Origin: Deltaproteobacteria bacterium
GTDB taxonomy: Bacteria > Desulfobacterota > GWC2-55-46 > DRME01
Reading direction: 5' to 3'
Length of the DNA: 32,746 nt
Assembly (NCBI GenBank): GCA_011375175.1
Contig: DRME01000097.1
Span: 1-32,746, forward strand
Below the pieces are notes generated by a model. It was not told the DNA's origin, made no database searches, and saw nothing but the letters and a program-made list of their open reading frames with translations. Below are positions 598 to 21,725 of this stretch, piece after piece. The position numbers were made by a program, and so were the translations under genes. Positions within the stretch are counted from its first letter, which is position 1. Each line of letters begins with the position of its first letter.

Positions 598-599
598 TC

Positions 600-1712: not shown

Positions 1713-2119
1713 TGGATGTTCACTCGCCGGAACAACGAAGCTACAACATGTCCCGGATAAAAGGCAAAAACACGAAACCGGAGTTGTTGGTTCGTAAATG
1801 GCTGTGGTCGCGAGGGTACAGATATCGACTTCATCGGAAAGATCTGCCAGGCAAACCCGATATTGTTTTCCCCCGGCAAAGAAAGGCAGTCTTTGTGCAT
1901 GGTTGTTTCTGGCATAAACATGATTGCAGGTATTTCAAGTGGCCCAGGACAAACAGAGAATTCTGGAAAAAGAAGATCAATGAGAATGTCAGACGCGATC
2001 AAAAAAACTATCAAGATCTGATTGCAGATGGCTGGAACTATTTCATCGTATGGGAGTGCGAACTCAAAGAAGATATCGCCGGACTTTGGGACAGACTCGC
2101 TGAGTTTCTGGAAAACTGA
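1712..2119 (+). CDS. vsr: Vsr-type very short patch repair endonuclease
   Basis: This 135-residue protein matches the length and motifs of Vsr endonucleases, which nick next to T:G mismatches at methylated-cytosine restriction sites. D50 in LPGKPDIVF corresponds to the catalytic aspartate. H63 and H68 in FVHGCFWHKHDC correspond to the active-site histidines. C65, H70, C72 and C116 (in VWECEL) match the four structural zinc ligands. The TRxEFWxxKIxxNVxRD-like helix is also present. Vsr normally accompanies a cytosine-5 methyltransferase. None is visible here; it may lie left of the window or be absent. Vsr-fold enzymes also serve as the nuclease of some restriction or defence systems with GHKL ATPases, which fits the two preceding genes. 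The ATG shares one base with the previous stop codon. Confidence 0.93.
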   Translation: MDVHSPEQRSYNMSRIKGKNTKPELLVRKWLWSRGYRYRLHRKDLPGKPDIVFPRQRKAVFVHGCFWHKHDCRYFKWPRTNREFWKKKINENVRRDQKNYQDLIADGWNYFIVWECELKEDIAGLWDRLAEFLEN

Positions 2120-2187
2120 GCATCACGAGGAATTATGGCAGGCAGAAGACAATACAGGCCATATGGTATGCAGTAAGGAAATCTGAA

Positions 2188-3228
2188 ATGGGATTCCGTT
2201 TCTGGAGAAGAATCAAAATCGCACCTGGAGTGACCCTGAACCTGAGCAAATCGGGTGGATCGCTCTCGTTCGGACCACGAGGTGCGAAGTTCACCGTTGG
2301 CTCCCGAGGCAAACGTGCGACGGTGGGTATTCCGGGAACGGGGCTATTTTACACCACAACCCTTCCAAGCGGGAGATCAGGCGGCCGGAGAAGCGCGTCC
2401 TACTCTGCTCAGGCCGCCCCAACCGTCCGCCCGGAAGACCGCCTGACCCTGGGCTTCTTCAAGCGGCTCATCACGCCGGACGACGAGGAGGCCTTGGTGG
2501 ACGGTTGCCGGGAGCTGGTACTGGGCAACGAAGAGAAGGCCCTCGAACACCTCGAGAAGGCCGCTCACTTGGCCGACGGCGCGTACCTTGCCGGTTTCCT
2601 GGCCCTCAAGAAGGAGCGGCTGGAAGAAGCTGCGAGCTATCTGTCCACGGCCGCCGAAAAGCACCGCCGCTTGAGCCGTTACTTCTCCAAATACGGCATC
2701 TCCGCCACCATGAGCCTGCCCATCACAGACGAGATATCCGCGCATGTGGGCCCGGATCTTCGGGGTGTGTTGCTGGGCCTGGTAGAGGCCTACCAGCGTC
2801 AGGAGCGTTGGCAGGATGCGATTGCCTGCCTGGAAAAACTGCGGCGGCTCGAACCCGACGACGTGGTGGTGAAGTTGTCTCTTGCAGAGCTGCTGCTGGA
2901 CGCTCATCCGGGCGTCAAGAACGTCTGTCAGAAGGTTGTACGGTTGGTTGAGGGCATTGAGAACGAGACGCCTATCCATGCAGCTTTGATGCTTTACAAA
3001 GCTAAAGCGCTTCGGCACCTCGGTCTGGCAACCGCGGCCCGGGACACATTAACAGCCGCCCTGCGCCGCAAGAAAGGCCGGTCCGATGATCTCCTCCGCG
3101 CCCTGCGTTACGAACGCGCTCTGGCCTACGAGGATTTGGGGCAGAAGTCTCGCGCCCGTGCCGAGTTCGAGAAGCTTTATGCTGAAGCCCCGGATTTCGA
3201 GGACGTGGCAGTTCGGTTGGGGCTTTGA
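2188..3228 (+). CDS. DUF4236 domain protein with TPR-like repeats
   Basis: This 346-residue protein opens with a DUF4236 domain (about residues 1-57), whose signature is GFRFWRRIKIAPG, NLSKSGGS, then GTGLFY. The function of that domain is not known. From about residue 100 to the end the protein is alpha-helical with degenerate TPR-like repeats (for example GLVEAYQRQERWQDAIACLEK and RYERALAYEDLGQKSRARAE), which suggests a protein-interaction scaffold. No signal peptide or membrane segment is seen. The start is supported by a GGAA-type ribosome site (taaggaaa) about 9 bases upstream. The next gene begins 30 bases downstream, so it may belong to the operon that ends in the Gabija pair. GC content rises from the start of the gene into the TPR part. 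Confidence 0.8.
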   Translation: MGFRFWRRIKIAPGVTLNLSKSGGSLSFGPRGAKFTVGSRGKRATVGIPGTGLFYTTTLPSGRSGGRRSASYSAQAAPTVRPEDRLTLGFFKRLITPDDEEALVDGCRELVLGNEEKALEHLEKAAHLADGAYLAGFLALKKERLEEAASYLSTAAEKHRRLSRYFSKYGISATMSLPITDEISAHVGPDLRGVLLGLVEAYQRQERWQDAIACLEKLRRLEPDDVVVKLSLAELLLDAHPGVKNVCQKVVRLVEGIENETPIHAALMLYKAKALRHLGLATAARDTLTAALRRKKGRSDDLLRALRYERALAYEDLGQKSRARAEFEKLYAEAPDFEDVAVRLGL

Positions 3229-3258
3229 ACCGCGATATGGTTGAGGAGGATATCTGCA

Positions 3259-3588
3259 ATGATCCAGGACCTGGAACGGGTCGAGTACCGCAAGGGACTG
3301 CTCGGAAAGGGAATGAAAGCGGACGGTCTGCCTATGAAAGTCTGGCGGGGGGCCAAGATTTCCGCAGACGTAAGGAAGGCGATCAACGAGGAGGATTTGC
3401 TCAATCTTAGCGGTGTTTATGGGGACAAGCATGCCGGTGTTCCTGTGGAATGCGACCACCTGAAACTGGCCCTGACCGACGACACGGTCGAGATCACGGT
3501 CTTTAACCGAGGGATCACGCTGTTCATGTCGGACGACGAACGGGTCCGACGCATCCACCGGGTCCTGTGCAAGCTGGATAGAAATTAA
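3259..3588 (+). CDS. Unknown small protein upstream of Gabija genes
   Basis: A protein of 109 residues with no family I recognise. The ATG at 3259 is chosen because a strong AGGAGG lies at 3244-3249; a TTG at 3241 in the same frame would overlap that ribosome site. The protein is charged and probably soluble, with no membrane segment or signal peptide. The middle and C-terminus (about 55-100) alternate short beta-like stretches with acidic turns. Its TAA shares one base with the next ATG, so it is translationally coupled to the following small gene and, through it, to the OLD nuclease. An accessory or regulatory role in the defence locus is inferred from position only. Confidence 0.7.
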   Translation: MIQDLERVEYRKGLLGKGMKADGLPMKVWRGAKISADVRKAINEEDLLNLSGVYGDKHAGVPVECDHLKLALTDDTVEITVFNRGITLFMSDDERVRRIHRVLCKLDRN

Positions 3589-3872
3589 TGGTACTAGGAA
3601 AGTCCAATGCAAAGAAAATCGCCTGGTGCGGACGGATCAAAGCCGTTCAGCCACGAATCCGTCCCATGCGGTCTTTCGACGAGCGACACCACAGCTACCA
3701 GGGTTACGTGCTTCGCGTTGACGGAACAATCGGGGACTCATCCGACCTGTCCGACCCGCACATCATCGCTGCGGAGGTCACCGAAGATATTGAATCGGCT
3801 CTGAAACAGATCCGGGATGCGCTTGGTGACCTAGAGGAACGGGCAAACATCGTGAAGGAGCCGGCGCTATGA
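3588..3872 (+). CDS. Unknown small protein coupled to gajA
   Basis: A protein of 94 residues, not recognised. The N-terminal half is basic and aromatic (GRIKAVQPRIRPMRSFDERHH) and may form a small beta barrel. The C-terminal part from about residue 63 is an amphipathic helix (TEDIESALKQIRDALGDLEE). Its ATG overlaps the preceding stop by one base, and its TGA overlaps the gajA ATG by four bases (ATGA). It has no strong ribosome site of its own, consistent with coupled translation. An antitoxin-like or nuclease-regulating role is possible but unsupported by any motif. Confidence 0.65.
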   Translation: MVLGKSNAKKIAWCGRIKAVQPRIRPMRSFDERHHSYQGYVLRVDGTIGDSSDLSDPHIIAAEVTEDIESALKQIRDALGDLEERANIVKEPAL

Positions 3873-5578
3873 GGATTCGGCAGGTGGAGATCGAAAGATT
3901 TCGGGGTATCAAGGAGCTGAAGTGGTGTGTTGATGGCGATATTGTGTGCCTCATTGGACCGGGTGACGCTACCAAGACGACGATCCTCGACGCCATAGAG
4001 CTTGCGTTGTCGCCACGGTGGAACATCCCTTTCGACGACACGGACTTCTATGATGCGGATACGTCCGAGCCTATCGTCATCCGCGTCACCGTTGGCGACC
4101 TGCCTGAGGAATTCAAAAGCGATGCAAAGTACGGCCTCGAGGCCCGAGGCTGGAGCCCCAGCGGTGAGCTCCATGACGAACCCGAGCAAGAAGACGAAAT
4201 GGTTCTGACCATCCAGCTTCGCGTCGAACCCTCGCTGGAGCAGTCGTGGGCCGTCGTCAATGACCGAAACCCAGAGGGGAAACACATCACGGCCAAGGAC
4301 AGGGAGAAGCTTGGATGTGCCCGGCTGGGAGACTACTTAGACAGGCACTTCTCTTGGAGTCGAGGGTCAATCCTTTCCCGACTCACTGGCGAGGCGGACA
4401 GCCTTTCCGGTATCCTCGCCGAGGCGGGTCGAGCCGCACGGAGTGCTCTTGCTGATGTTCCGCACGAGAAGCTTTCCAGTCTTCGACAGGCGGCATTACG
4501 GGCGAGACAAGCCGGCAAGGAGATGGGAGTTGCTCCAACGGCTGAGTACAAGCCACATCTGGACGTCCAGGCCGTGTCTGTCGGACTTGGTGGGGTCTCT
4601 CTCCATGACGGCGAGGTTCCCCTGCGACGTGCGGGCCTTGGTACACGACGGCTTCTCGCTGTCGCAATGCAACGTGAGGTTGCCAAGGCTGGCGGGCCTA
4701 CCTTGATTGATGAGGTGGAGCATGGACTGGAGCCGCACCGCATTCGACGTCTAATTCGGGTGCTTAGCGCTAACGACGGCGCACTAGGTCGGCGGCACGT
4801 GCTAATGACGACACACTCGCCTGTCGTCCTCGGCGAGCTCAATGCCCAAGACATCCGAATTGTCCGGCACGAGCATGGGGTCACGAAGGTCTATTCCGTC
4901 CCGGAGGACTTGCAACCAATCGTTCGGAAAGCGAGCGAGGCATTCCTTGCCCGTAAAGTTATCGTCTGTGAGGGAAAAACAGAACTTGGGTTTTGCCGGG
5001 GGCTCGATGCGTGGTGGTCCAGGGATGGCAGACCATCCTTTGCCTTGGCAGGGATTGCGCTTGCGGATGGGGGAGGGTCAGAAGCCACCCGCGTCACAAA
5101 GGCGCTGGCCGACCTTTCTTATGATGTCTTGTTTCTTGGTGACTCGGACCAACCCATTGACCCAGATCAAAATGCTCTTGAGCAGGCAGGTGTGAAGGTC
5201 CTCCTCTGGGATGGGGATACAGCAATTGAACAACGAATCGGGTTGGATTTGCCTTGGGACGGTGTTGTCGACGTCGTGAACTTGGCGATGAACGTTTGGG
5301 GCGAGGACAGTGTACGGGACGCCATAGCTACCAGGTTGGAAGCTCACTCTGAGAGAAAGTTGACCAACAACCCATCAGACTGGCTCGGTTTAGGCCCAAA
5401 CGATGACGACTTCCGAAAGGCCATCGGCGATGCGGCAAAAAAGAAAGGTTGGTTCAAGCGCGTTGATCTTGCCGAGGACTTGTCAGAGATAGTCATCAAA
5501 TATTACGTCAATATCAAGGAGACAGACCTCGGGCAGAAGATAGCTGCTCTTCAAAAGTGGGCGCACAGCGATGAATGA
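3869..5578 (+). CDS. gajA: OLD-family ATPase/TOPRIM nuclease, GajA-like (Gabija)
   Basis: A protein of 569 residues, close to the usual GajA length. An ABC-type ATPase comes first: FRGIKELKW, then a P-loop at residues 30-38 (GPGDATKTT), and TLIDEVEHG around residue 277 as Walker B, followed by a TTHSP switch-histidine motif. A TOPRIM domain follows, with VIVCEGKTE (E368) and FLGDSDQ (D425, D427), which form the metal-binding site of the nuclease. Class 2 OLD enzymes sit beside UvrD-like helicases and form the Gabija anti-phage system, in which GajA cuts DNA when nucleotide levels fall. The helicase gene overlaps this one by eight bases, as expected. One oddity is that the usual glycine before the P-loop lysine is T35. 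The two small genes upstream are not part of the classical two-gene system. Confidence 0.88.
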   Translation: MRIRQVEIERFRGIKELKWCVDGDIVCLIGPGDATKTTILDAIELALSPRWNIPFDDTDFYDADTSEPIVIRVTVGDLPEEFKSDAKYGLEARGWSPSGELHDEPEQEDEMVLTIQLRVEPSLEQSWAVVNDRNPEGKHITAKDREKLGCARLGDYLDRHFSWSRGSILSRLTGEADSLSGILAEAGRAARSALADVPHEKLSSLRQAALRARQAGKEMGVAPTAEYKPHLDVQAVSVGLGGVSLHDGEVPLRRAGLGTRRLLAVAMQREVAKAGGPTLIDEVEHGLEPHRIRRLIRVLSANDGALGRRHVLMTTHSPVVLGELNAQDIRIVRHEHGVTKVYSVPEDLQPIVRKASEAFLARKVIVCEGKTELGFCRGLDAWWSRDGRPSFALAGIALADGGGSEATRVTKALADLSYDVLFLGDSDQPIDPDQNALEQAGVKVLLWDGDTAIEQRIGLDLPWDGVVDVVNLAMNVWGEDSVRDAIATRLEAHSERKLTNNPSDWLGLGPNDDDFRKAIGDAAKKKGWFKRVDLAEDLSEIVIKYYVNIKETDLGQKIAALQKWAHSDE

Positions 5579-6986
5579 GGCTGAGACCCTGGCAAGAAGT
5601 CGTCTTGGCTCGATGATCGCCGCTGCAGGATGCGGCAAGACCTACCTGATCGGGATGGCCGTCGCGAAGTACGGGAACGGACGGGAGCTTGTGCTTACCC
5701 ATACCCACGCGGGAGTGGATGCGCTCCGCCGCCGGCTTGCCACGTTCGGGGTTCCAGCAAAGGCTTACCACGTGGATACGATAGCCGGATGGGCACTCCG
5801 ACTGGCAGTATCCTTCCCACGGACATCTGCGTTGCCGACGCCCAAGCCTCGAACTATCGACGAATATGACGCAGTCTACGTCGCAGCCACTCGCTTGCTC
5901 CACCTTCGTCCAATTCAGGATATCCTACGGGCATCCTACACCGGTGTATACGTGGACGAGTATCAAGACTGCACCATAGAGCAGCATGAACTCGTGCTGG
6001 CTCTTGCCGATATTCTGCCCTGCAGGATAGTCGGCGATCCACTCCAGGCGATCTTCGACTTCGGCAATAACAAGCCAATCGACTGGAATACACACGTGGT
6101 TCCGCACTTCGAACCTGTTCCCGAACCAACCGTTCCCTGGCGATGGCGGAACTCGAATCCTGAGCTTGGGGAGTGGCTCCAAGAGGTCAGAGAGAGACTC
6201 TCGAACGGCTGCGATCTAGATCTTCGCGGTGCGCCCGTTCAATGGATCGAGGCTCGCTCGATGGAAACTAGCCAGGGGAAACAACTGGCGGCCTGCTTCG
6301 ACGCAGCTCGGAGCGATGGTAAGAGGGTCATCGCTATCCTGCAGTGGCGTAATCAATGCCATGAACTGGCCAGCCGCCTTAGGGGTATTTACTCCTGCGT
6401 CGAGGCCATTGATGAGAAGGACCTTTACGAAGCTGCCAAACAGTTTGATAACGCAATCGGGCCGGCGAGGGCCATCGCAGTTCTCGACTTCGCCAAGAAG
6501 TGCATGACCAAGGTTTCGACAGAGCTTAGGAGTACGTGGAACGCATTCAGTGAGGGAAGGCCCCCAAAGGGACGCAAACATCGCGAACAAATCGGAGCTC
6601 TGATCGCCGTTGCTCAGGAACCGGATTATCGGCCTGTGGCAGTGGCGCTTGAATCCTTCAGACTGATTCCGGGCGCTAAAGTGTATCGCAGGGAGCTGCT
6701 GCGGGAGATGATGAAGTCTATTCTTGCTGTGGCGACGGCAGAAGCAGCGAACCTGGAGGAGGCGGCCTGGATTATCCGGAACCGGACACGACAGATTGGC
6801 CGTCGACTACCACGGTGTGCGGTTGGCACAACTCTCTTGGTCAAAGGCCTAGAGTTCGATCATGCTGTACTCCTAGACGCCGATGCATATAACCGAAGGA
6901 ACTTGTATGTTGCACTCACACGTGGGTCCACATCGCTCACCATTGTCTCAAGGTCGCGAATTATTCAACCGAAGGAAGATGGTTGA
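5571..6986 (+). CDS. gajB: UvrD/Rep-like helicase, GajB-like (Gabija)
   Basis: A protein of 471 residues, a size typical for GajB and much shorter than UvrD or Rep. Superfamily 1 motifs are present in order: Walker A AAAGCGKT near residues 17-24, motif Ia LTHTHAGVDALRRRL, motif II VYVDEYQDC, motif III RIVGDPLQAIFDF, motif IV VPWRWRNSN, and the C-terminal pair LLVKGLEFDHAVLLDA and NLYVALTRG. All residues needed for ATP hydrolysis appear intact. GajB is thought to be activated by DNA ends and to drop ATP levels, relieving inhibition of GajA. The gene overlaps gajA by eight bases and ends the operon. No clear terminator follows. Confidence 0.87.
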   Translation: MNEAETLARSRLGSMIAAAGCGKTYLIGMAVAKYGNGRELVLTHTHAGVDALRRRLATFGVPAKAYHVDTIAGWALRLAVSFPRTSALPTPKPRTIDEYDAVYVAATRLLHLRPIQDILRASYTGVYVDEYQDCTIEQHELVLALADILPCRIVGDPLQAIFDFGNNKPIDWNTHVVPHFEPVPEPTVPWRWRNSNPELGEWLQEVRERLSNGCDLDLRGAPVQWIEARSMETSQGKQLAACFDAARSDGKRVIAILQWRNQCHELASRLRGIYSCVEAIDEKDLYEAAKQFDNAIGPARAIAVLDFAKKCMTKVSTELRSTWNAFSEGRPPKGRKHREQIGALIAVAQEPDYRPVAVALESFRLIPGAKVYRRELLREMMKSILAVATAEAANLEEAAWIIRNRTRQIGRRLPRCAVGTTLLVKGLEFDHAVLLDADAYNRRNLYVALTRGSTSLTIVSRSRIIQPKEDG

Positions 6987-7043
6987 ACAGAGCAACCGAT
7001 TGCAAAATCAGCGATGTGGACGTGTTATGACAACACCGCGTTT

Positions 7044-7073
7044 GATATGGCAGTGGGAATCGAACCCACGTCC
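7044..7073 (-). other. tRNA/tmRNA-like T-arm fragment, possible attachment-site relic
   Basis: On the reverse strand, 7053-7069 is a perfect T-arm: GTGGG, TTCGATT, CCCAC, preceded by GGAC as in many tmRNA 3' ends. The following bases (TGCCATATCA) do not make a normal acceptor end with CCA, and no matching 5' half or anticodon arm is seen upstream. It is therefore a fragment, not a gene. Integrases often recombine at exactly this part of tRNA and tmRNA genes, so it could mark the right end of the island carrying the defence genes. The whole gap from 6987 to 7359 holds nothing else I can support; an imperfect hairpin around 7148-7175 is visible. Confidence 0.4.
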
Positions 7074-7359
7074 ATTCTCTGTTTGGGGAAAATGTGGAGA
7101 AAAACATTTCCCGCGTAGGGACGCGGAGAACGGCACTTGGAAACTCTCAAGGCATTGTAAATAAAAGGCTTTTGATGCGTAGGCGCTGGGGAGACTGAGT
7201 TTTGGGAAGGCGGCGAGCCCTCCACCAGCCTTCGCTTCGAAACCTGTTGAGAAGAGAAGGCTGCCGCGTCGAAGTTGCACGACAACGAAGACGGGCTTTT
7301 TTATAATGCTATTGTTGTTTCGAAGCTCCGGCTCGGCACGCCTTACGAGCATGGGGACG

Positions 7360-7605
7360 ATGAACTTTTATTATGTTTACATCTTGCAATCCGAATCCGA
7401 CCCCGAACATTTTTACACGGGTTTCACCGAAGACCTCGATTCTCGCCTGAAATCACATAATTCCGGTCAGGTTACATCTACGACGAAATACAAGCCGTGG
7501 CACATTAAAACAGCCATAGCGTTCACCGATCGGGAGAGAGCATTGGACTTCGAAACTTATCTAAAAAGTCCATCAGGCCGGGCTTTTGCAAAGAAACGAC
7601 TTTGA
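7360..7605 (+). CDS. Small GIY-YIG nuclease-domain protein
   Basis: A protein of 81 residues that is a single GIY-YIG domain, as in the UPF0213/YhbQ group. The first half-motif is YVYILQS (residues 5-11) and the second is YTGFT (19-23), a variant of YIG. The conserved arginine in DLDSRLKSHN is R29 and the catalytic glutamate is likely E65 in ALDFETYLKS. All the expected active-site positions are therefore occupied. The start at 7360 (MNFYYVY) fits the family's short N-terminus, with GGGGAC just upstream. Starts at 7306 or 7351 are possible but add unconserved residues. Stand-alone copies are common in accessory regions, and their role is unclear. Confidence 0.85.
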   Translation: MNFYYVYILQSESDPEHFYTGFTEDLDSRLKSHNSGQVTSTTKYKPWHIKTAIAFTDRERALDFETYLKSPSGRAFAKKRL

Positions 7606-7934
7606 TCTCCGGGATTCTCCACCCGCCTGAGGGGCGAAGCCCCGTAATAAGAGCCACTTAGTGGCCTCCCTCTTTTCCCGCCTTTCATTCTCTGTTTGCC
7701 CCCAGATTCTCTGGCCTCGAAGGACGAAGTCTCAAAGCTCGTCCGGTTGGGCAATCCCTTTTATATCAAGGACCTAAGCCGACCGGCCGTTTTCGCAAGT
7801 TTGGAAACACGGCCTGTGGTGCGAAAAAGCACCCGAATTTTCGAACCAAAAGTCCGTCGCAGGGTTTGAGAAATGGGATTAATGCGCGGATTTCCCGGCG
7901 GGGAGTCTCGACACTCGATTTGGAATTTGGTTTT
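7606..7934. other. Non-coding gap with short hairpins
   Basis: I see no gene in this stretch. Two small palindromes lie close together just after the GIY-YIG gene: GGGGCGAAGCCCC at 7631-7643 and GCCACTTAGTGGC at 7653-7665, the latter followed by a pyrimidine-rich run (ctccctcttttcccg). The second could be a weak terminator. The rest, to the attC-like palindrome, has no recognisable content. It is AT-richer than the core genome and probably belongs to the accessory debris. Confidence 0.4.
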
Positions 7935-8008
7935 GACAACGCTGCAGCTAAAAGGCTGGTAAAGGAGCGCAGAGGGTTTGCCAGTCCTCTTTCAGCCGCT
8001 TGTTAGGC
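7935..8008 (-). repeat. Integron attC-like recombination site
   Basis: Read on the reverse strand, this begins with GCCTAAC at 8008-8002, a perfect match to the RYYYAAC box of attC sites. It overlaps the stop codon of the reverse-strand gene, which is the usual cassette arrangement. The opposite end has GCTGCAGC followed by GTTGTC at about 7946-7935, where only the GTT core matches GTTRRRY. The two halves fold back on each other imperfectly: AAC-AAGCGGCTGAAAG against CAACGCTGCAGCTAAAAG, then ACTGGCAAA against TTTACCAG. The spacing (about 74 nt) and imperfect palindromy are typical. No integrase gene is present in the window. Confidence 0.5.
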
Positions 8009-8365
8009 ATTTTCATCATCTAAAACAATTACTTCTTCATCTCTTGAGCGATTTGGATTGTTGTAATGAAAACAATAAACAATTGGTATTCCGGTGTCTC
8101 CCAATATCTTGGACAGCAATTTAGTCAATTCCAAGCCTTTTTTATCAAGTTCATACCAAGGAAAATTCGGATTAGTATCAGGCTCCCCGCTATCTATCCA
8201 ACACGCCAACCCATACAGCTGATCTTCAATTTCACGTATTTCTTCGATTCTTGGATGATTCTCAAAATAATTAGTCAGCTCAAAAGCACAGTAGTTTTCG
8301 TCACAGGCATAGCATGGCCCATAGTCCGGCATTATCCGTATGATTTTCGGTAACTTTCCATCCAT
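8003..8365 (-). CDS. Unknown AT-rich protein, candidate gene-cassette cargo
   Basis: A soluble protein of 120 residues that I do not recognise. It is acidic, with a cysteine-containing YACDENYCAFEL stretch near residues 18-29 and a helical EEIREIEDQLYGLACWID segment in the middle. It ends with a run of acidic residues (EEVIVLDDENA). Base composition is far more AT-rich than the core genome. The ATG is followed by a second ATP-like start context of no note; the reading frame is clean. Its TAA stop lies inside the RYYYAAC box of the attC-like site, so it looks like cargo of an integron cassette. Such cassette genes often encode unknown, toxin-antitoxin or immunity-type proteins. Nothing here decides which. 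Confidence 0.65.
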   Translation of the reverse strand: MDGKLPKIIRIMPDYGPCYACDENYCAFELTNYFENHPRIEEIREIEDQLYGLACWIDSGEPDTNPNFPWYELDKKGLELTKLLSKILGDTGIPIVYCFHYNNPNRSRDEEVIVLDDENA

Positions 8366-8514
8366 TTTCGTTGCCTAAATAGTTATTCTACAAGAAATCT
8401 CCGTTTGCCGGGTACGCCCCCCCAAAAATACATTTTACACTCAGCTCCGCTCGTAATCAACATATTCGGTTAAGATGTTTTAACCACCCAAACCTTAATC
8501 GAGAGTAGGAGGAG

Positions 8515-8601
8515 ATGACTGCCAAAAAGAAGATAGCACAGACGAGGCTCTCAATGCTACAGCTTGCAGAAAAGCGCCGTAACGTCTACGAGGCCTGCCG
8601 C
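8515..8601 (+). pseudogene. N-terminal remnant of an IS481-like transposase
   Basis: The first 29 codons (MTAKKKIAQTRLSMLQLAEK, then NVYEACR) closely resemble the start of IS481-family transposases, whose N-terminal helix-turn-helix usually reads LxLAExLxNVSEACR. A good ribosome site (AGGAGG) stands just before the ATG, so the 5' end of the element is intact. After residue 29 the similarity stops and the DNA continues as unrelated sequence. The frame stays open by chance into aroD, giving a misleading long reading frame. The match is from memory of the family motif. Confidence 0.6.
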
Positions 8602-8685
8602 CGGCGGGTACCCCTTGGCGCCGATATGGCGGCATATCTCGTCCAGGGTCTCCCGCTGCAGCAGGGTAATCTCGTCTGTTTTGCC
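8602..8685 (-). pseudogene. LexA-like N-terminal fragment
   Basis: The reverse strand encodes 28 residues beginning GKTDEITLLQRETLDEIC and ending GAKGYPP. This resembles the start of LexA repressors (LTxxQxxVLxxI...GYPPTxxEI). It has no start codon, follows an in-frame TAA, and breaks exactly at GYPP, where the IS481-like remnant begins on the other strand. It looks like a relic truncated by the insertion. The segment is too short for certainty and could be chance resemblance. From 8690 to 9066 I see no gene, only a degenerate repeat copy. Confidence 0.3.
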
Positions 8686-8873
8686 TTAAGCCCATGGCTA
8701 CCACATTTACCAAAAACGAAAGACCCACCGGGCCAGATAAACCAGAGTCCCCTCGAGTCAGGGCTTCCTCGGCCCCGCGGCGCCGAACCTTTCTCCTTGA
8801 CTAAGAAATCGCCTTACGTTATGCTGGACTACCGCGCGCCGGCAAGTTCCGCTCAAGGAAACTCTTTTTCACC

Positions 8874-8904
8874 GAGGAAGCCTTTTTTGCAGGAGTGTCC
8901 CCTC
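8874..8904 (+). repeat. Degenerate copy of repeat module A
   Basis: The stretch gaggaagccttttttgcag followed by gagtgtcccctc resembles the module A hairpin seen intact at 13128-13157 and 32426-32456. It lacks perfect pairing. It is preceded by ggaaactc and followed by aattccctcc, which echo sequences flanking the intact modules. This suggests the repeat family also reached this junction, close to where the core genome resumes. Confidence 0.35.
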
Positions 8905-9066
8905 GAATTCCCTCCAATCAAGTACGCCGCGGCGGCTCTCCCTGCGCGCAGAGGCGGGGCGGCGGGGGCGGCGAAGGGTTTCGGGGGAGAGAGGGCTACT
9001 GCGGGTGTGAAGGCCCTTGCGCCTGGCCCTTCCCGGCTTTCGAGGGGCGGCGCCTCGGGGAAGGCG

Positions 9067-14082: not shown

Positions 14083-14167
14083 GCCGAAGTGGTGGAATTG
14101 GTAGACACGCCATCTTGAGGGGGTGGTGGGGCGACCCGTGGGGGTTCGAATCCCCCCTTCGGCACCA
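14083..14167 (+). tRNA. tRNA-Leu (anticodon GAG)
   Basis: An 85-base class II tRNA. The acceptor stem GCCGAAG pairs with CTTCGGC, and A plus an encoded CCA follow (14164-14167). The D arm contains TGGTGGAATTGGTAGACAC. The anticodon stem CCATC/GGTGG encloses TTGAGGG, giving anticodon GAG for CUC and CUU. A long variable arm (about GGGCGACCC) and the T arm GGGGG-TTCGAAT-CCCCC are all intact. It has its own promoter just upstream. The kamA-like gene follows after about 200 bases, in which I see no other gene. Confidence 0.97.
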
Positions 14168-14373: not shown

Positions 14374-15450
14374 ATGGAACAATGGAGAGAGGAACTCCGT
14401 AACAGCGTCAACACGCTCGAGAGGCTGAGGGAATATATAGACGTCACGCCCGAGGAGGAGGAGGCCGTAACCACTCTGGGCACCCGCTGGGGCACGACAC
14501 CGTACTTCGCCTCGCTCATGGACCGCAATGACCCGGCCTGCCCCGTCCGCCGCCAGGTCGTACCGTCGCTCAAGGAGCGCGAGAACCGCTACGGCATGGA
14601 CAACTTCCTCGTCTGGAAGGAGAACCGCGACAACGGCGAGGACCGTCCCGACAGCATCGCACGCCAGTACACCGACCGCATAGCCTTCACCATAACCGAC
14701 ACGTGCGCCATATACTGCCGCCACTGCTTCCGCAAGGAGGTGGTCATCGACAAGGAGCTCGAGCTTCGCTTCGACGTCGACGAGGGTCTGCGGTGGATAA
14801 GGGAGCACAGGGAGATAAGGGACGTGCTCGTCACCGGCGGCGACCCCTTCATCCTGAGCGACGACAGGATCGGCTACATCGTCGCCAGGCTGCGCGAAAT
14901 AGGACACCTTGAGATGATAAGGTTCGGCACCAGGACCCCCATCGTCCTGCCGAGCCGCATAACCCCGGGCCTCAAGCGCGTGCTGGGCGGCTTCCACAAG
15001 GTGCCCATCTGGCTCAACACCCAGTGCAACCACCCCAAGGAGATAACCGAGCAGACGGCCCGCGCCGTCTACGAGCTCGCCACCTGCGGCATAAACGTGG
15101 GCAACCAGGCCGTGCTCATGAAGGGCATAAACGACGACGTAGCGACCTTCAGGAAGCTGCACGAAAAGCTTCTGAGCGTGCGCATCAGGCCCTACTACCT
15201 CTTCTACTGCCAGGCCGCCCCCGGCATCGACCACTTCCGCACGCCCGTGGAAAAGGGCGCCGAGCTCATCCGCGACGCCCTCAGGGGCCACACCACCGGC
15301 CTTGCACAGCCCCTTTACGTCAACTCCACCAACATCGGCAAGATACCGCTCATGCCCGACTACTACATGGTGGGCAAGAACGAAAAGGAGTACACGCTGC
15401 GAAACTTCAGGGGAGAGCACACCACGTTGCCCAACATACCGGCCGACTGA
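14374..15450 (+). CDS. KamA-family radical SAM 2,3-aminomutase
   Basis: A protein of 358 residues. The radical-SAM cluster motif is CAIYCRHCF (C111, C115, C118), followed by a GGDPF motif (155-159). HFRTPVEKG and LRGHTTG match the KamA family. K323 in [11 protein letters not shown] is at the position of the PLP lysine of lysine 2,3-aminomutase. The two aspartates that hold the lysine side chain in KamA seem to be replaced, by Q280 in YCQAAPG and by N317 or a neighbour in YVNST. The substrate may therefore not be lysine; glutamate or another amino acid is possible. The start at 14374 has GAGGAGA just upstream; an ATG at 14317 lacks this. It is shorter than clostridial KamA. Confidence 0.85.
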
Positions 15451-15535: not shown

Positions 15536-16906
15536 CTACCCCCTTGCAAGGAGGTCCCAGAGCGGACCTCTGCGGCCGAGGCGGCGCAGCATCGCCACCG
15601 TCTCCGCGCCGGTCCTTATGTGAAGGCCGGGCACTATCCAGTTGGGGCGGCTCAGGGCGTACTCTCTCACCATCTCGACGAGCCGGCGCGCCGGAAGGTG
15701 CGGCGAGAAGTAGAAGACGGGTTCGAGAAGCGGCTCTCCCCTCCCGATCACCCCCTCCTCCAGCGCCCTCCCGGCAAGCCCCGTGCCCGGATAGACCCTC
15801 ACCCCCAGCATGGCTATGACCGCTCTCGGTCTTATGCGCTCCATGAAGGAAAAGGTCCCGGCAAGGGTCTGCTCCGTCTCCCCCGGCCCTCCCAGTATCA
15901 GGTAGTGGGCCGCCTCGAGGCCGGCGCGGTCGCAGAGGTGCTGGGCCCTGGCCACGTCATCGGCGGTAAAGCCCTTGTCCAGGGCCGCGAGTGTAGAGTC
16001 GCCGCCGCCGTCGGTGCCGAACTCGACGGCCATGCAGCCCGCGCGCTTCATCACGTCGAGGAGAGCGGCGCTCATGGTCCTCGGCGTGGCGAAACAGGTC
16101 CACCGCACCCGTATATTGCGCCTTATCATCTCCTCGCAGATGAGGTGGGCGTGCTCCTCGGGAGAGTTGAATATGTCGTCCACGAAGAAGATGTAGTCCA
16201 CGCCGTGACGGCCCGCGAGGGCCTCGATCTCTTCGGCCACCTCGGCGGGCTCGCGCAGACGCAGCCGCCTCCCCTCTATCATGGGGTAAGTGCAGTAGGT
16301 GCAGGAAAAGGGGCAGCCGCGCTTGGTCTGCACGCTGCCCATGCCTCCCTCCTCGAGGTAGCGGCCGTTGTCGAGAAGGGAGCGGGCCGGCGCAAGGCGG
16401 CCGAAGTCCTCGTCGAAACGGGCGGTCCCTTTCGCCCCGCCGCCCGGCCTGAGCAGATTGGGCACGCCGTCCACATCGCCCCCTCCCTCGAGCGCCTCGA
16501 CGAGCCTGACAAGGGAGCCCTCTCCCTCGCCCCGTATGCCGTAGTCTGCGCCCGTGTAGGCGAGCACCTCGCGGGGAAAGATGGAGAAGCCCGGCCCCCC
16601 GACCACCACGGGGGCGTCGGAGACCTCCTTGAGCCTCGCCACGACCTCTCTTGCGGCCGGCAGGTAGAAGACGCTTGCGGGATAGGTGAGGTTGTCGACG
16701 TTGCGGATGGAGAGCCCTATGAGGTCGGCTCCGAAGGAGCGGGCGGCGGCCGCGGCCGCGGCCGGCCCGTCGTCCTCGAAGCAGAGGTCGAGCACGCGCA
16801 CGCGGTGGCCGGCCTCGATGAGAGAGGCGGCCACGTAGGCGATCCCCAGCGGCGCCACCGGGTAGGGAGAGCGCTCGCGGTTGGCCGATATCAGCAGTAC
16901 TTGCAT
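15536..16906 (-). CDS. B12-binding-domain radical SAM protein
   Basis: A protein of 456 residues. An N-terminal Rossmann-like cobalamin-binding domain (about 1-135) has PLGIAYVAA and VVVGGPGFS but no DxHxxG, so any cobalamin would bind without a histidine ligand. A radical-SAM domain follows, with C198, C202 and C205 in CPFSCTYC, and VDDIFN and LGGPGET motifs typical of this superfamily. The C-terminal 60 or so residues are helical. The group includes methyltransferases and ring-forming enzymes; the exact reaction cannot be read. It is the last gene of an overlapping operon, sharing 16 bases with the SPASM gene before it. It ends 85 bases from the convergent kamA-like gene. Confidence 0.85.
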   Translation of the reverse strand: MQVLLISANRERSPYPVAPLGIAYVAASLIEAGHRVRVLDLCFEDDGPAAAAAAARSFGADLIGLSIRNVDNLTYPASVFYLPAAREVVARLKEVSDAPVVVGGPGFSIFPREVLAYTGADYGIRGEGEGSLVRLVEALEGGGDVDGVPNLLRPGGGAKGTARFDEDFGRLAPARSLLDNGRYLEEGGMGSVQTKRGCPFSCTYCTYPMIEGRRLRLREPAEVAEEIEALAGRHGVDYIFFVDDIFNSPEEHAHLICEEMIRRNIRVRWTCFATPRTMSAALLDVMKRAGCMAVEFGTDGGGDSTLAALDKGFTADDVARAQHLCDRAGLEAAHYLILGGPGETEQTLAGTFSFMERIRPRAVIAMLGVRVYPGTGLAGRALEEGVIGRGEPLLEPVFYFSPHLPARRLVEMVREYALSRPNWIVPGLHIRTGAETVAMLRRLGRRGPLWDLLARG

Positions 16907-18000
16907 GACGGGGCGTCTTCCAGCGGGCTCGTCCCGTCACCGTCGCCGCGGCCGGCCCGCTCCTCCCCGAGCCAGCACTTGGGGTCGGAGGCGAGGTAGT
17001 TGCCCGTCATCTGGTAGGCGTTGCCGCGACAGCCGTAGCAGTCGGGACTCAGCTCGCAGGTGCCGCAGGGGCCCTCGATCTTGCTGTGGATGTTGCGCAG
17101 GTCCTGGATCACGCGGCTCGTGCGCAGTATCTCGGCAAGGGGCTGGCTCCGCACGTTGCCCACGAATATGTCGATGCCCGTGCATGGCTGGACATAGCCC
17201 TGGGAGTTGACGAGCGTGGAGTAGAGATGGCGCCTGCAGGTGAAGGAGGCTATGGTGGGGTGGGGGTTCCAGTCTATGGAGAACTCCTCGTTGTCTATGC
17301 GCCGCAGCCTCTCGAAGACGCGCTTTATCTCGCCGTTGTCCACGAGGAGTTCGCCGTGCTCGCGGGCCCGGCCCTGGAGGGTGAGTATCTCGAAATAGGG
17401 GACGACCCCCCTGCGCCGCGCCCAGCGCCACATCTCGGGCACCTCATCGATGTTCTGCCTCACTATCACCGTCTGGATTCCCATCTGCCGGGACGGGGCC
17501 GGATAGCCGGCGGCGAAGAGATTCTCGATGGCGCCGCGGATCCTGTCGTAGGCCCCTTCCACGCCCGCCAGGCTGTCCTGGATGCGTGGCGAGAAGCTGT
17601 TGTGCTTCACCACGACCGTGACGCCCCGGCCGGCCAGAAAGCGCGCGAGCTCGGCGGTGAGCAGGAGTCCGTTGGTGAAGAGCGACTGGTCAAGCCCCCT
17701 GGAGCGTATGTAGTCGATCACCTCCGGCAGCCGCCCGTAGAGCAGGGGCTCGCCGCCGCCGAGAAGTATGATCTTCTTTGCGCCGAGACGGGCCGCCTGG
17801 TCTATGACCGAGCAGACCTCGTCGAAGTCGAGCTCGTCCTTGAGGGGCTCACCAGCCGACGAATAACAGTACAGGCACCGCAGATTGCACCTCTTGCTGA
17901 ACTCGAGCTCCAGCGAAAGGAGTCCTCCCCGCCTCAGCGTCTCTTCGATCTCGTCGTCCGTAAAGTCGAGTCCGTGGATGACCTCGTAGTTAAAGGACAT
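16891..18000 (-). CDS. Radical SAM/SPASM protein
   Basis: A protein of 369 residues. The radical-SAM motif CNLRCLYC gives C38, C42 and C45, and LLGGGEPLL follows. The C-terminal region has many cysteines (YVQPCTGID, GPCGTCELSPDCYGCRG, DPKCW, and a terminal CKYC), as expected for SPASM domains binding one or two extra clusters. SPASM enzymes often modify ribosomal peptides or act on protein partners; no precursor peptide is evident next to it. The start at 18000 is 2 bases after the stop of the adenylating enzyme gene. A longer frame upstream runs antisense-free but out of frame through that gene and is not coding. Confidence 0.87.
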   Translation of the reverse strand: MSFNYEVIHGLDFTDDEIEETLRRGGLLSLELEFSKRCNLRCLYCYSSAGEPLKDELDFDEVCSVIDQAARLGAKKIILLGGGEPLLYGRLPEVIDYIRSRGLDQSLFTNGLLLTAELARFLAGRGVTVVVKHNSFSPRIQDSLAGVEGAYDRIRGAIENLFAAGYPAPSRQMGIQTVIVRQNIDEVPEMWRWARRRGVVPYFEILTLQGRAREHGELLVDNGEIKRVFERLRRIDNEEFSIDWNPHPTIASFTCRRHLYSTLVNSQGYVQPCTGIDIFVGNVRSQPLAEILRTSRVIQDLRNIHSKIEGPCGTCELSPDCYGCRGNAYQMTGNYLASDPKCWLGEERAGRGDGDGTSPLEDAPSCKYC

Positions 18001-18002
18001 GT

Positions 18003-19310
18003 TTAAGGAGTACCCCCTTCCGGTCTTTTTTTCTCCCGCTTGTCCACGAAGGTAGCCTTCTTGCGCCGTCCGTCGAGGCAGAGAAGGGCCTCGACTTCCG
18101 GGGGGCTCATGATCACGATATCGGGCGTTACGCGCAGCACGGCCCTCAGCGTCGAGCGGAGCTCGTCGGCGAAGGCGTAGTCCTTTCGCTCGGAGCCGAC
18201 CCTCACGAGCACGCGGTCCGAGCCGTCGGCGGCGCTTCGCGCCTCTATCTGGAAGTTGACCACCCCGCTTACGCGAAGCAGCGCGTTCTCGAGGGCCGGA
18301 GGATAGACGGTCGTGCCCTTGACCTTGAGCTTCTGTCCGCGCCTCCCTATCACGGGCCCTATGCGCAGCGCGCGGTTGCCGCAGGGACAGTGACCTTCGA
18401 CGATGAAGCTCATGTCGCCGGTCCTGTACCTGACAAGCGGCATGCCCTCCACGCCGAGAGTGGTGAGCACGAGCTCGCCCGGCTCGCCCGGGCCGAGAAC
18501 GCGCCCCTCGTCGTCGACGACCTCGACGTGAACGAAGTCGGGATGGGCGTGGAAGCCCCTGTGTTCGGCGCACTCCGTGAAGGCCGTCTGGGCCTCGGTG
18601 ATGCCGTAGGTGGAGAAGGTCTCGCACCCCCATGCCTCCTCGACGAGCACGCCGAGGCGGTTGGAGCCGAAGTCCTCGTTCCTCACCGTCTCGCCTATGA
18701 GAAGGGCCTTGGGCACGAGCCCTTCGACGGCGATGCCGAGGCGGCGCGCCTCCGAGGCCATGTGTACGAGGAAGCTCGGCACGGCCACGACGGCGGCGGG
18801 CCGCAGGGATCGGAGGAGCTCGAGGTGGCGAAGCGGGGACTTGGGCCCGCAGCGCACGGCGGCGGCGCCGAGGCGGGCAAGGCCGCTGTGGTAGGCGAGC
18901 CCCGCGATGAAGAGGCTGTCCATGGTGACGGCCAGGTGGACCACATCGCCCTCGCCGAGCCCCATGCGCTCGAAGGAGCGCCTCTCGTTCTCGGCGAGCC
19001 TTTCGATGTCGGCCGCCGTCATGGCGAAGAAGAGAGGCTCCCCCGTCGTGCCGGTGGTGGAGACGATCTCCCTTACGGCCCGGCGCCCGGCGGCGAGGAA
19101 GTCCCAATTGGACCTCTCTATGTCCCCCCGTGTCGTGAGAGGGAGGCCTGGCAGGTCTTCGACCCCCCTGAAGGCGGCGGCGTCGATGCCGAGCCTTGCG
19201 AACCTCTCCCTGTAGAATGGAGAGGCCGCGGCTGCGTACCTGACCGCGGCCCTGAGCAGCTCGTTGTGGTCCCCCGGCGGCGAAACCCCGCCCCCGCTCT
19301 CTTCACTCAC
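18003..19310 (-). CDS. Phenylacetate-CoA-ligase-like AMP-forming enzyme
   Basis: A protein of 435 residues, the usual length for the phenylacetate-CoA ligase/coenzyme F390 synthetase group. It shows the AMP-binding loop STTGTTGEP (83-91), the adenine-contacting YGITEAQ, the ribose-binding RYRTGD, and a C-terminal subdomain with GRRGQKLKVKG. A CxCG pair (HCPCGNR) resembles the cysteine motif of this subgroup. It should adenylate an aromatic or other carboxylic acid and probably form a thioester. It overlaps the ketoacyl-synthase-like gene by eight bases and the SPASM gene follows directly. The substrate is unknown. Confidence 0.87.
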   Translation of the reverse strand: MSEESGGGVSPPGDHNELLRAAVRYAAAASPFYRERFARLGIDAAAFRGVEDLPGLPLTTRGDIERSNWDFLAAGRRAVREIVSTTGTTGEPLFFAMTAADIERLAENERRSFERMGLGEGDVVHLAVTMDSLFIAGLAYHSGLARLGAAAVRCGPKSPLRHLELLRSLRPAAVVAVPSFLVHMASEARRLGIAVEGLVPKALLIGETVRNEDFGSNRLGVLVEEAWGCETFSTYGITEAQTAFTECAEHRGFHAHPDFVHVEVVDDEGRVLGPGEPGELVLTTLGVEGMPLVRYRTGDMSFIVEGHCPCGNRALRIGPVIGRRGQKLKVKGTTVYPPALENALLRVSGVVNFQIEARSAADGSDRVLVRVGSERKDYAFADELRSTLRAVLRVTPDIVIMSPPEVEALLCLDGRRKKATFVDKREKKRPEGGTP

Positions 19311-20100
19311 CCTCGGTCTCTCCGCTTGCAGGTTCTCCGGCCGCGCCGTCCGGCCCCGGGAAGAGGCCGCTTCGCCGCCCGTCGATCTCCACGGTCACGC
19401 CGCGCCCGCTGTCGTCGCAAAACTCCATCAAGGCGCGGCCCCCTCCGCAGGCATCGAGGAAAGCCGCGAACGTCTCGCCCATGGCGCGGCAGAGCCTGCG
19501 GCCCTCCCCTCTTCTCTCCGCACCGCTCTCAAAGGCCCCTCTCAGACAGAGGGGGGCGCTGCGGGCCGACAGGAGCAGTGTAAGGGCGCTCCCCTCGGCG
19601 ACAGCCGCGCAGAGCACCCTGGCGGCGCGTCCCGTCTCAACGAGCATTCGGCCGTGAACCAGGGCCTTGAGAAACGACAGCGGGCCGCTCGTCACGGTAA
19701 GGCTCTCGCCGCGCAGGCCGTGGACGATTGACAGGCGCGCCGCCAGGGCGTTGGGGCTCGTATAGGGGAAGACAAGAGGGCTTGCGCCGAGGGGCCCCTC
19801 CTCCACCACCGCCGCGAAGTAGTCGGCCTTCCAGCCGTCCACGACCGTATCAACGGCGGCCACAAGGGCCGTGTCGTCGAGCCCGGCCCCCTCCCCCCCC
19901 TCGGCCCCCTGCAGACCGGCGGCCTCGATGGTCCGGCCCGCGCAGGCAACGAGCAGCGCCTCCTCGTCGAAGAGGGTCCTCACCGGCAGGGCCTCGACGG
20001 CCGAAGGGTCGTCGAGGAAGGCGACCCCCTCGATGGCCGGGGCCGGCCCGCCGGAGCCTCCACCTCCATCCCCTGAGCCGCGAAGGTCCGTCAGGCTCAC
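19303..20100 (-). CDS. Ketoacyl-synthase-like protein lacking active-site cysteine
   Basis: A protein of 265 residues resembling the N-terminal half of beta-ketoacyl synthases of the Ketoacyl-synt_2 type. The best stretch is [15 protein letters not shown] with [15 protein letters not shown] and [13 protein letters not shown] (about 110-153). The place where active enzymes carry TACSS reads VTSGPLS, so the nucleophilic cysteine is missing, and the C-terminal histidine half is absent. It may be a chain-length-factor-like or scaffold subunit. The N-terminus is glycine-rich. Its ATG overlaps the preceding stop by four bases and its end overlaps the next start by eight. Confidence 0.65.
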
Positions 20101-21476
20101 CGGCCGTGTTCCTCCACCTCGTCCTCTGAAGGGACGACTATCCAGGTCTTTTCGAGCGAAAACCTCATGGCGAGCTCGTTGGCGACCCTGCGGGCCTGCT
20201 CCCCGCTCGGAAAGAATCCGACCCGCACCCTGTAGAGCGTATCTCCGTCGTATAGGAGCTCCGTTATGTATGCGTTGAAGCCGGCGCGCTCGACGAGGGC
20301 GGCAAGGCCCTCCGCGTCGGCGCGCGTGCCGTAGGTGGCGAGGTTGACGGCCCAGGGCCGGGCCGCGGCCTCATCCTCTTCGTCGGCGGCCTCCTCGCCG
20401 CCATTTATGATGACGATGCGCCCCTTGCGAGCCTCCTGCTCCTGCGCCCCCGGACTCTCCCGGGGTCCGCCCTGCTCCTGCGCCGGGGCCTCGACCTCGA
20501 CCTTCCTGCCGGTGATCGCCTCAACGGCCCCGGCGGCCTCGACCCTCACCCAGGGGTCGGGGTCGGCGAGCGCCGCCTCCAGGGCGTCCGCGGCCCTGCG
20601 GGCCTTGAGCGAACCCAGGGCCCTGGCGGCCTCGCGGCGCACGAAGGGCTCGGCGTCGTCCTTCAGGGCCTTCACAAGGGCATCGACGGCCGCCTCGCCG
20701 CCCACCACGCCGAGCCTGCGGGCGGCGTCGGCGCGCCTGTGCCACTGCTCCCCGGCGTCGAGAAGCGTCTTTACGTCACCGGACGCCTTGTAGCCGGGCT
20801 CATAGACCGGAGCGAGCCAGAAGGGCACGGAGCGGCGGCGCCTCTTTCCGTCCGTCCCGGCGGCGGGCTTTTCCGCGGGCTTCGCCGCCCTTGCCGTCGC
20901 CTTCTTTTCGGGAGGAGCGGCCCGCGGCCTCTTCTTCCCGGCCCCCGCGGCGGCCGTCCCGCCGACCTCCACGCCGAGCAGCGAGAGCGAGTTGCGGGCG
21001 GCTGCGGCCACGATCGCCACCTCCACCTCCTCGCCGTCCACCACGTCGGGCGCCGTCTCGTCGTCCTTGAGGGCGGCGCGCAGCGCATCGACGGCCCTCG
21101 CATCACCGATGCGGCCCAGCGACTCGGCGGCCTCGGCCCGCACATAGACGTTCTCGTCCGTTGAGAGCGCCTCGATAAGGGGCTCGACGGCCAGGGGGTC
21201 TCCTATGGCTCCCAGTGCGTAGGCCGCGTTCTGGCGTACCTTCCAGTGGTCGTCCACCTTGAGGGCCATGGCCAGCGGCTCCACCGCGGCCGGCCCGGCC
21301 CCGGCAAGCCTCTTGGCGGCCTCGGCCCTCTCGCCCCAGGAGCGCTCCATGTCCTCGAGCACGAGTACATCGTCCGCCAGCTTCTCGTCGACCGCCTGCG
21401 ACGGCGACGGCGCAAAGGACGCAAGGCAGAGGAAAAAGAGCAGCGGCGCGGCCGGCGGGTATCGTCCAGAGGCCAT
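20097..21476 (-). CDS. Secreted HEAT-repeat protein with SPOR domain
   Basis: A protein of 459 residues. An N-terminal signal peptide (hydrophobic [12 protein letters not shown], ending near SQA) directs it to the periplasm. HEAT or PBS-lyase-type helical repeats follow in two blocks (about 40-140 and 240-325; for example [25 protein letters not shown] shortened units). A lysine/alanine/proline-rich linker separates the blocks. The last 80 residues form a SPOR domain ([20 protein letters not shown], then YRVRVGFF), which binds peptidoglycan lacking stem peptides. The start at 21476 has GGGGAGGG seven bases upstream; the ATG at 21497 lacks one. It heads the five-gene operon, with a 4-base overlap to the next gene. 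Confidence 0.8.
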
Positions 21477-21725
21477 AAGCCCTCCCCATCTATTCATCGA
21501 AAGAAACGGCGCCCGAGGCGCCGCCGCGCGGCGGCGAAGACCGCATCGCGGGGCCCCTTTCGATTTTAAGCCATATCACGTCATAAATCGAGTCTTTTTA
21601 CGCCGCAAGCGCCGCCTCCCAGGGGCGCCTCCGCCCTCGGCATGGCTCACCGCCGGCCGCTGCCGGACCGTGCCGGCCTCACCGCGCGCCCCCGCCCGGT
21701 GCGGCCCGGGCAGGCTTCCACCACG

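Follow-up and report, generated by a model that had tools for sequence, protein, structure and literature searches.

A block of four genes, probably a segment of a ladderane-type lipid pathway split over four loci, in a deltaproteobacterial genome

Ladderane synthesis is unsolved, and the standing candidate for it is a gene cluster of the anammox bacterium Kuenenia, kuste3335–3352, the functions of which are listed in Table 2 of Javidpour 2016 (PMC4790861). Here we describe a block of four genes that resembles part of this cluster and is found on contig DRME01000097.1 of a deltaproteobacterial genome (assembly GCA_011375175.1). The window, that is, the whole stretch of DNA analyzed, is this entire contig of 32,746 nucleotides (C97); the genome measures 2.49 Mb, is 98.6% complete and is assembled in 138 contigs.

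The upper part of the Kuenenia cluster runs from a deacetylase-like gene (3351) through a small protein, a FabF (3349), a non-canonical FabF (3348) and an S-adenosylmethionine (SAM) methylase (3347) to a further FabF (3346). The lower part continues with a gene marked as unknown (3345), a phenylacetyl-coenzyme A (CoA) ligase (3344), two SAM radical enzymes (3343 and 3342), FabG (3341), an acyl carrier protein (ACP; 3340) and FabZ (3339). The deacetylase-like call for Kuste3351 comes from Rattray 2009 (PMC2649909), which reports similar clusters in Desulfotalea psychrophila, Geobacter and Pelobacter; a reviewer's pairing in the same source matches Kuste3343 with DP1855 and Kuste3342 with DP1853. 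For the methylase Kuste3347 and for Kuste3351 it gives no synteny with D. psychrophila and little similarity elsewhere.

The block in the window, at positions 15536–20100, probably provides starter loading and radical tailoring in a lipid pathway of ladderane type (type II fatty-acid/polyketide, as in Kuenenia and Desulfotalea), split over four loci in this genome. This assignment draws on homologies, motifs, gene order, co-occurrence and shared trees, from which we infer the substrate, the order of steps and the product.

A conserved block in the order of the Kuenenia cluster

Five open reading frames (ORFs) lie head to tail on the minus strand between 15536 and 21497. In the direction of reading, the first encodes a HEAT-repeat/SPOR protein with a hydrophobic N-terminus (20097–21497, with an inner ATG at 21476; Pfam HEAT_2 and C-terminal SPOR). 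It is followed by a half-size, cysteine-less ketosynthase-like (KS-like) protein of 265 residues (19303–20100), a PaaK/FlxY-like adenylate-forming ligase of 435 residues (18003–19310), a SPASM radical SAM enzyme of 369 residues (16891–18000; Pfam Radical_SAM and SPASM) and a B12-binding radical SAM enzyme of 456 residues (15536–16906). From the HEAT/SPOR end the junctions are −4, −8, +2 and −16 bp; neither a sigma-70-like promoter nor an informative terminator was found in a search of the locus. The initial annotation had described five overlapping or nearly touching genes: all five ORFs and their tight junctions are real, but the conserved set is four plus one.

In tblastn searches of relatives, the genes for the ligase, the SPASM enzyme and the B12 radical SAM enzyme stand side by side in unchanged order in 11 genomes of the same class, and in nine of these the KS-like gene stands directly before the ligase. 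The exceptions are loci L039, with a different upstream part, and L037, in which KS-c (a ketosynthase of the wider cluster, described below) is joined to the ligase by an apparent deletion. At L037 (10351–11413) KS-c looks cut short and joined to a ligase remnant of 85 C-terminal residues, and the KS-like gene is missing; this is either a deletion or an assembly collapse, the genome (G022) being in only three contigs. At L060 (9125–10415) the B12 radical SAM gene of genome G031 lies in two frames, owing to a frameshift or a sequencing error. Because the four-gene order recurs in relatives, the grouping exceeds chance.

The block comprises the KS-like gene, the ligase and the two radical SAM genes; the HEAT/SPOR gene lies outside it, a local neighbor rather than a conserved member. 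It was found in none of the block-bearing clusters of relatives, and at E ≤ 1e-30 it has no match in genomes of the same order and a match in only one of 59 genomes besides its own, to the HEAT part alone. For want of conservation we rejected it as a pathway member, and the link to the cell envelope that had been drawn from it is unsupported. More likely is an envelope link through the MMPL and LPLAT genes found at another place in the genome.

The block is not confined to one class. When named genomes were scanned, the SPASM gene turned up in metagenome-assembled genomes (MAGs) of Deltaproteobacteria and in two of Nitrospirota, as well as in Desulfobulbaceae/Desulfobacterales and one Omnitrophica, and the block itself also occurs in the Nitrospirota MAGs (L090, L091) and the Omnitrophica (L095). 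Wherever enough contig remains it sits mostly within a full type II fatty-acid synthase/polyketide synthase (PKS) cluster. This begins with a deacetylase, a small membrane protein, ketosynthase (KS) KS-a, a dead KS (KS-b), a methyltransferase (MT1) and KS-c; the block follows, from the KS-like gene to the B12 radical SAM gene, and after it a ketoreductase, an ACP, FabZ, a glycosyltransferase and a second methyltransferase (MT2). Genes for a phosphopantetheinyl transferase (PPTase), an MMPL exporter and a phytoene-desaturase-like protein lie near the full cluster in relatives, and the L037 cluster holds a LolA gene. The first proposal, that the genes make or modify an acyl or aromatic compound, is thus borne out in outline: in relatives an exporter, an ACP, a ketoreductase, FabZ and another three KSs accompany the block.

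Gene order ties these clusters to Kuenenia. In L036/L087 it equals kuste3351–3339 position by position, save for one TPR-type gene beside the deacetylase; the same order is met in L042/L080 and L085, and some relatives carry inserted extra genes. The source genome keeps this order piecewise only, within each of three segments (on C10, in the window and on C134). By position, the KS-like gene, the ligase, the SPASM enzyme and the B12 radical SAM enzyme match kuste3345, 3344, 3343 and 3342, respectively, a putative equivalence that rests on the published numbering, on the NCBIfam family TIGR04072 and on a match to the anammox methyltransferase AmxMT1. The set had initially been described as one that could be matched to no known pathway; the ladderane-type type II fatty-acid synthesis (FASII) cluster of Kuenenia and Desulfotalea provides the match.

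The B12 radical SAM enzyme scores 437.6 bits over residues 2–454 against the equivalog TIGR04072 (rSAM_ladder_B12; cut-off 360), the full name of which is 'lipid biosynthesis B12-binding/radical SAM protein'. Matches above this cut-off occur in 24 of 117 related genomes. Proteins of TIGR04072 type, above or just below cut-off, also stand beside a ketoreductase at six loci of the same phylum (L045, L049, L050, L051, L053 and L057), sometimes with KS, ACP or LPLAT genes and without SPASM, ligase or KS-like genes: another context of the family. The second tie is the Kuste3347-type methyltransferase of the C10 segment (L078:6324–7439), which matches AmxMT1 of Brocadia fulgida (8hd2_A) with 226.6 bits (E 4.4e-66), the next PDB match scoring 26 bits. 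Because of this match, the lineage of the window is, as far as the AmxMT1-type methyltransferase is concerned, a closer putative non-anammox counterpart than D. psychrophila. MT1 is present in 10 of the 117 genomes, all of them belonging to the 13 in which the SPASM enzyme has a strong match (hypergeometric 3e-12, ignoring relatedness), and its distribution is patchy within genera.

In a tree of the block, G012, G028 and G031 (L041, L048, L060) group with members of another family of the class (G060, G051, G056 and G061; L042, L038, L044, L039), and G022, of the same family as the first three, falls outside their grouping. Compared with family membership, the block tree points to probable lateral transfer of the cluster.

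Probable remaining segments of the pathway in the source genome

Missing genes were sought by means of ketosynthase, ketoreductase, exporter and desaturase searches. Contig C10 carries the deacetylase, the small membrane protein, KS-a, the dead KS-b, the AmxMT1-like MT1 and KS-c, followed by a sensor kinase: the segment stops exactly where the block of the window would start. On C134 a hemerythrin-like gene precedes the ketoreductase, ACP, FabZ, glycosyltransferase and MT2. C65 carries a phytoene-desaturase-like oxidoreductase, an MMPL exporter, a further B12 radical SAM enzyme and an acyltransferase (LPLAT), and then mreB-type genes. The whole ladderane-type set (FASII genes, SAM radical enzymes, phenylacetyl-CoA ligase, divergent FabF paralogues and a phytoene-desaturase-like gene) is therefore in the genome, on C10, C97, C134 and C65, that is, on four contigs rather than at a single locus.

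Each segment is internal to its contig. This position, together with inner-side neighbors that are unrelated and a GC content of the block resembling that of its flanks, led us to reject an artifact of contig ends. Trees were built from three segments (window, C10 and C134); in each, the source genome goes with whichever of G006, G008 and G022 it contains, and conflicts are restricted to weakly supported nodes. We conclude that these genes probably form one pathway, which looks complete and is now divided among four loci. The initial annotation would have given up the grouping had relatives carried the genes scattered: the four are together in relatives, and it is the larger cluster that is scattered, in the source genome instead. 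Since the block stays together when the rest is dispersed, its retention as the cluster broke into modules suggests that the KS-like protein, the ligase and the two radical SAM enzymes may act together.

Two other regions were considered. C116 (L079, 175–10298) holds a separate type II KS cluster of polyene type without the radical SAM block, consisting of four KSs, two dehydratases, a PPTase, two ketoreductases, an ACP-like protein and an LPLAT; it was rejected as a missing part of the pathway, the best matches to the pathway KS-c, ketoreductase and FabZ being those on C10 and C134. Ligase-like and radical SAM genes on C63 were likewise rejected, as weak matches in a surface-polysaccharide-like context.

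Predicted roles and competing explanations

The ligase and both radical SAM enzymes look functional, judged by the motifs they keep. In the ligase (Pfam AMP-binding and AMP-binding_C_2, the C-terminal domain under its cut-off) TTGTTG, RYxTGD and a C-terminal RK are conserved. Its best NCBIfam match is FlxY (NF053551), full-length at 407.7 bits against a curated cut-off of 520, and its solved relatives are phenylacetate-CoA ligases; with scores under the cut-offs, a true FlxY or PaaK was rejected. The B12 radical SAM enzyme combines Pfam B12-binding and Radical_SAM with a CxxxCxxC motif. Because its nearest solved structure is 6wte, a tryptophan C2-methyltransferase with a B12-binding domain (150.7 bits), and the nearest of the curated families, below cut-off, is BzaD, C-methylation is our default guess at its role. 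The SPASM enzyme is 60–68% identical across 11 relatives and has 10 invariant cysteines (CX3CX2C plus seven more); it reaches no NCBIfam equivalog, the best being AhbD at 149 of 500 bits. Identification as the heme-b synthase AhbD, NirJ or PqqE was dismissed, given scores far under the cut-offs and an unlike context.

The KS-like protein matches Pfam ketoacyl-synt weakly (E 3.7e-5) over half the domain. Glycine replaces the active-site cysteine of working KSs, and the second thiolase half, which bears the catalytic histidines, is missing. In a Foldseek search against the PDB, its AlphaFold2 model (mean pLDDT 79.6) has as top four hits the chain length factor (CLF) of ishigamide synthesis (6kxf_B, 6kxd_B, 6kxe_B) and ApeC (6qsp_B), at TM 0.55/0.61. 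ApeC is itself half the size of its KS, with one thiolase fold only. The KS fold, the non-catalytic state and the half size (a single thiolase fold) are those of a polyene-PKS CLF, and in relatives the gene adjoins KS-c. The protein that had been read as an inactive ketosynthase is thus most likely a non-catalytic partner of a KS. Two families are not reached: for PF13723 (Ketoacyl-synt_2) the protein of the window is unlisted at E 0.01 and its L036 homologue scores 16.1 bits against 25, and for the AmcG cyclization factor (NF058659) the score is 21.5 bits against 80. In Nitrospirota the KS-like protein is ∼190 residues long (L090 8082–8651; L091 7950–8525), and a possible homologue of 145 residues, near AmcG in size, is found in the Desulfobulbaceae-type locus L092 (6756–7193).

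We propose that the ligase would adenylate a carboxylic-acid starter and pass it to the dedicated ACP (or to CoA), and that two pairs of a KS and a non-catalytic partner, KS-a:KS-b and KS-c:KS-like, would extend it with malonyl units. The ketoreductase and FabZ would then act and, because the cluster is without an enoyl reductase, the chain would stay polyene-like. The two radical SAM enzymes of the block could act on the ACP-bound chain or on the starter by methylation, oxidation or C–C bond formation, the methyltransferases could tailor the chain further, and the MMPL protein and the acyltransferase (LPLAT) may export the product and anchor it in the envelope.

Several points weigh against this proposal. 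The putative equivalence to kuste3342–3346 comes from published gene numbering together with TIGR04072 and AmxMT1. The ligase misses the FlxY cut-off; no dedicated PPTase is found among the dispersed genes on C10, the window, C134 and C65, one being present in the separate C116 cluster; and the four-locus split depends on an assembly in 138 contigs, though the segments lie inside contigs. Against the PDB, ACP and FabZ return general FASII matches only.

A possible but rather unlikely alternative is an anaerobic relative of the aryl polyenes and flexirubins, in which an aromatic acid would be loaded, KS/CLF pairs would extend it into a conjugated aryl polyene, and the ring of the product, an envelope pigment, would be decorated by the radical SAM enzymes. 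The FlxY match and the phenylacetate-CoA ligases among the solved relatives of the ligase would suit it, as would the likeness of the KS-like protein to ApeC and the ishigamide CLF, both of polyene systems, and the proximity of the B12 radical SAM enzyme to aromatic-ring-methylating enzymes; the MMPL, LPLAT and glycosyltransferase genes, plus LolA in L037, also recall aryl-polyene clusters. Yet the ligase stays under the FlxY cut-off and the KS-like protein below PF13723, and the 98.6% complete source genome yields no match to an aromatic amino-acid lyase (PF00221) or a UbiC-type chorismate lyase (PF04345), which speaks against the usual aryl starter and led us to reject a canonical supply of it. 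To our knowledge, moreover, the described aryl-polyene clusters are without radical SAM enzymes.

That the organism makes a ladderane, other ring-fused lipids, or polyunsaturated hydrocarbons as in D. psychrophila appears improbable, even with an order that follows the main Kuenenia candidate cluster gene by gene and takes in a methyltransferase of the type that Rattray 2009 (PMC2649909) found without close relatives elsewhere. D. psychrophila has a syntenic cluster and yielded no ladderanes, E. coli expressing the Kuenenia genes formed no new fatty acids, 'ladderane' clusters are reported from metagenomes of many non-anammox phyla (Desulfobacterota and Omnitrophota included) without known ladderanes, and the C31:9 hydrocarbon of Geobacter is tied to pfa-like synthases. 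In cispentacin synthesis, AmcF–AmcG shows that a KS and a small cysteine-less partner, AmcG, which is tied to ring closure, can cyclize an ACP-bound chain (PMC10698177), but the KS-like protein matches AmcG weakly. A more specific version, very improbable in our estimation, is that the full Kuenenia-type set with its AmxMT1-type methyltransferase makes a ring-containing polyene lipid, ladderane-like or otherwise radically cyclized, with KS-c/KS-like and the two radical SAM enzymes forming rings on the ACP. Least probable of all is a self-contained operon of five genes, HEAT/SPOR included, with its own envelope-linked product and independent of the other KS genes. The 4-bp overlap between HEAT/SPOR and KS-like genes would allow one transcript for all five; however, such an operon would be without an ACP or a catalytic KS, the HEAT/SPOR gene is missing from the clusters of relatives and nearly absent from the class, and the four other genes co-occur with those of C10 genome by genome.

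Neighboring genes and comparison with described systems

Beyond the block, the window contains a Gabija-type anti-phage pair at 3869–6986 on the plus strand (GajA 641 bits, GajB 533 bits; PADLOC models), with a Vsr nicking endonuclease at 1712–2119; GC is 42–58% over positions 1–9000 versus 62–72% in the remainder. Just past a tRNA-Leu (14083–14167), and convergent to the block, a lysine 2,3-aminomutase-like radical SAM gene (14374–15450, plus strand) is not part of the cluster in relatives.

Non-anammox clusters of ladderane type were known already. New, by our reading, are the AmxMT1-type gene and the full gene order outside anammox bacteria, the dispersed arrangement with the four-gene block intact, and the interpretation of 'unknown' proteins of kuste3345 type as probable CLF-like KS partners. 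The occurrence of the whole set, in unchanged order and with a gene hitherto regarded as an anammox peculiarity, in MAGs of Deltaproteobacteria and Nitrospirota would mean either that the product is no ladderane but a more widely distributed polyene-type lipid, or that ladderane-like lipids occur more widely than thought. Search tools that look for a single locus may miss split clusters of this kind.

Among described systems, kuste3335–3352 is matched by relatives in gene kinds and order, with two radical SAM enzymes, a phenylacetyl-CoA ligase, a dead KS and a SAM methylase; the differences are that the host is not an anammox bacterium and that the cluster of the source genome is split. The D. 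psychrophila loci (DP1853/DP1855) share both radical SAM enzymes, the ligase and the phytoene-desaturase-like gene, an arrangement seen in the Desulfobulbaceae-type loci L092 and L094. Unlike the window, these two have a SPASM enzyme only ∼52–55% identical, together with an extra radical SAM enzyme, a second ACP and a PlsC-like gene, and no AmxMT1-type gene was found in them. With the type II PKSs for aryl polyenes (ApeO–ApeC) and ishigamide (Iga11–Iga12) the pathway has in common a KS with a non-catalytic partner (half-size in ApeC too), a ketoreductase and a dehydratase without an enoyl reductase in the cluster, and MMPL export genes; it differs in its radical SAM enzymes, in that no aryl starter enzymes were found, and in the distance of the KS-like protein from PF13723. 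FlxY is matched by the ligase over its full length, but under cut-off and in a genome without an aromatic amino-acid lyase. The cispentacin pair AmcF–AmcG (PMC10698177) offers a KS with a small cysteine-less partner and an adenylate-forming acid–ACP ligase as the start; unlike that pair, the present set shows no evidence of cyclization.

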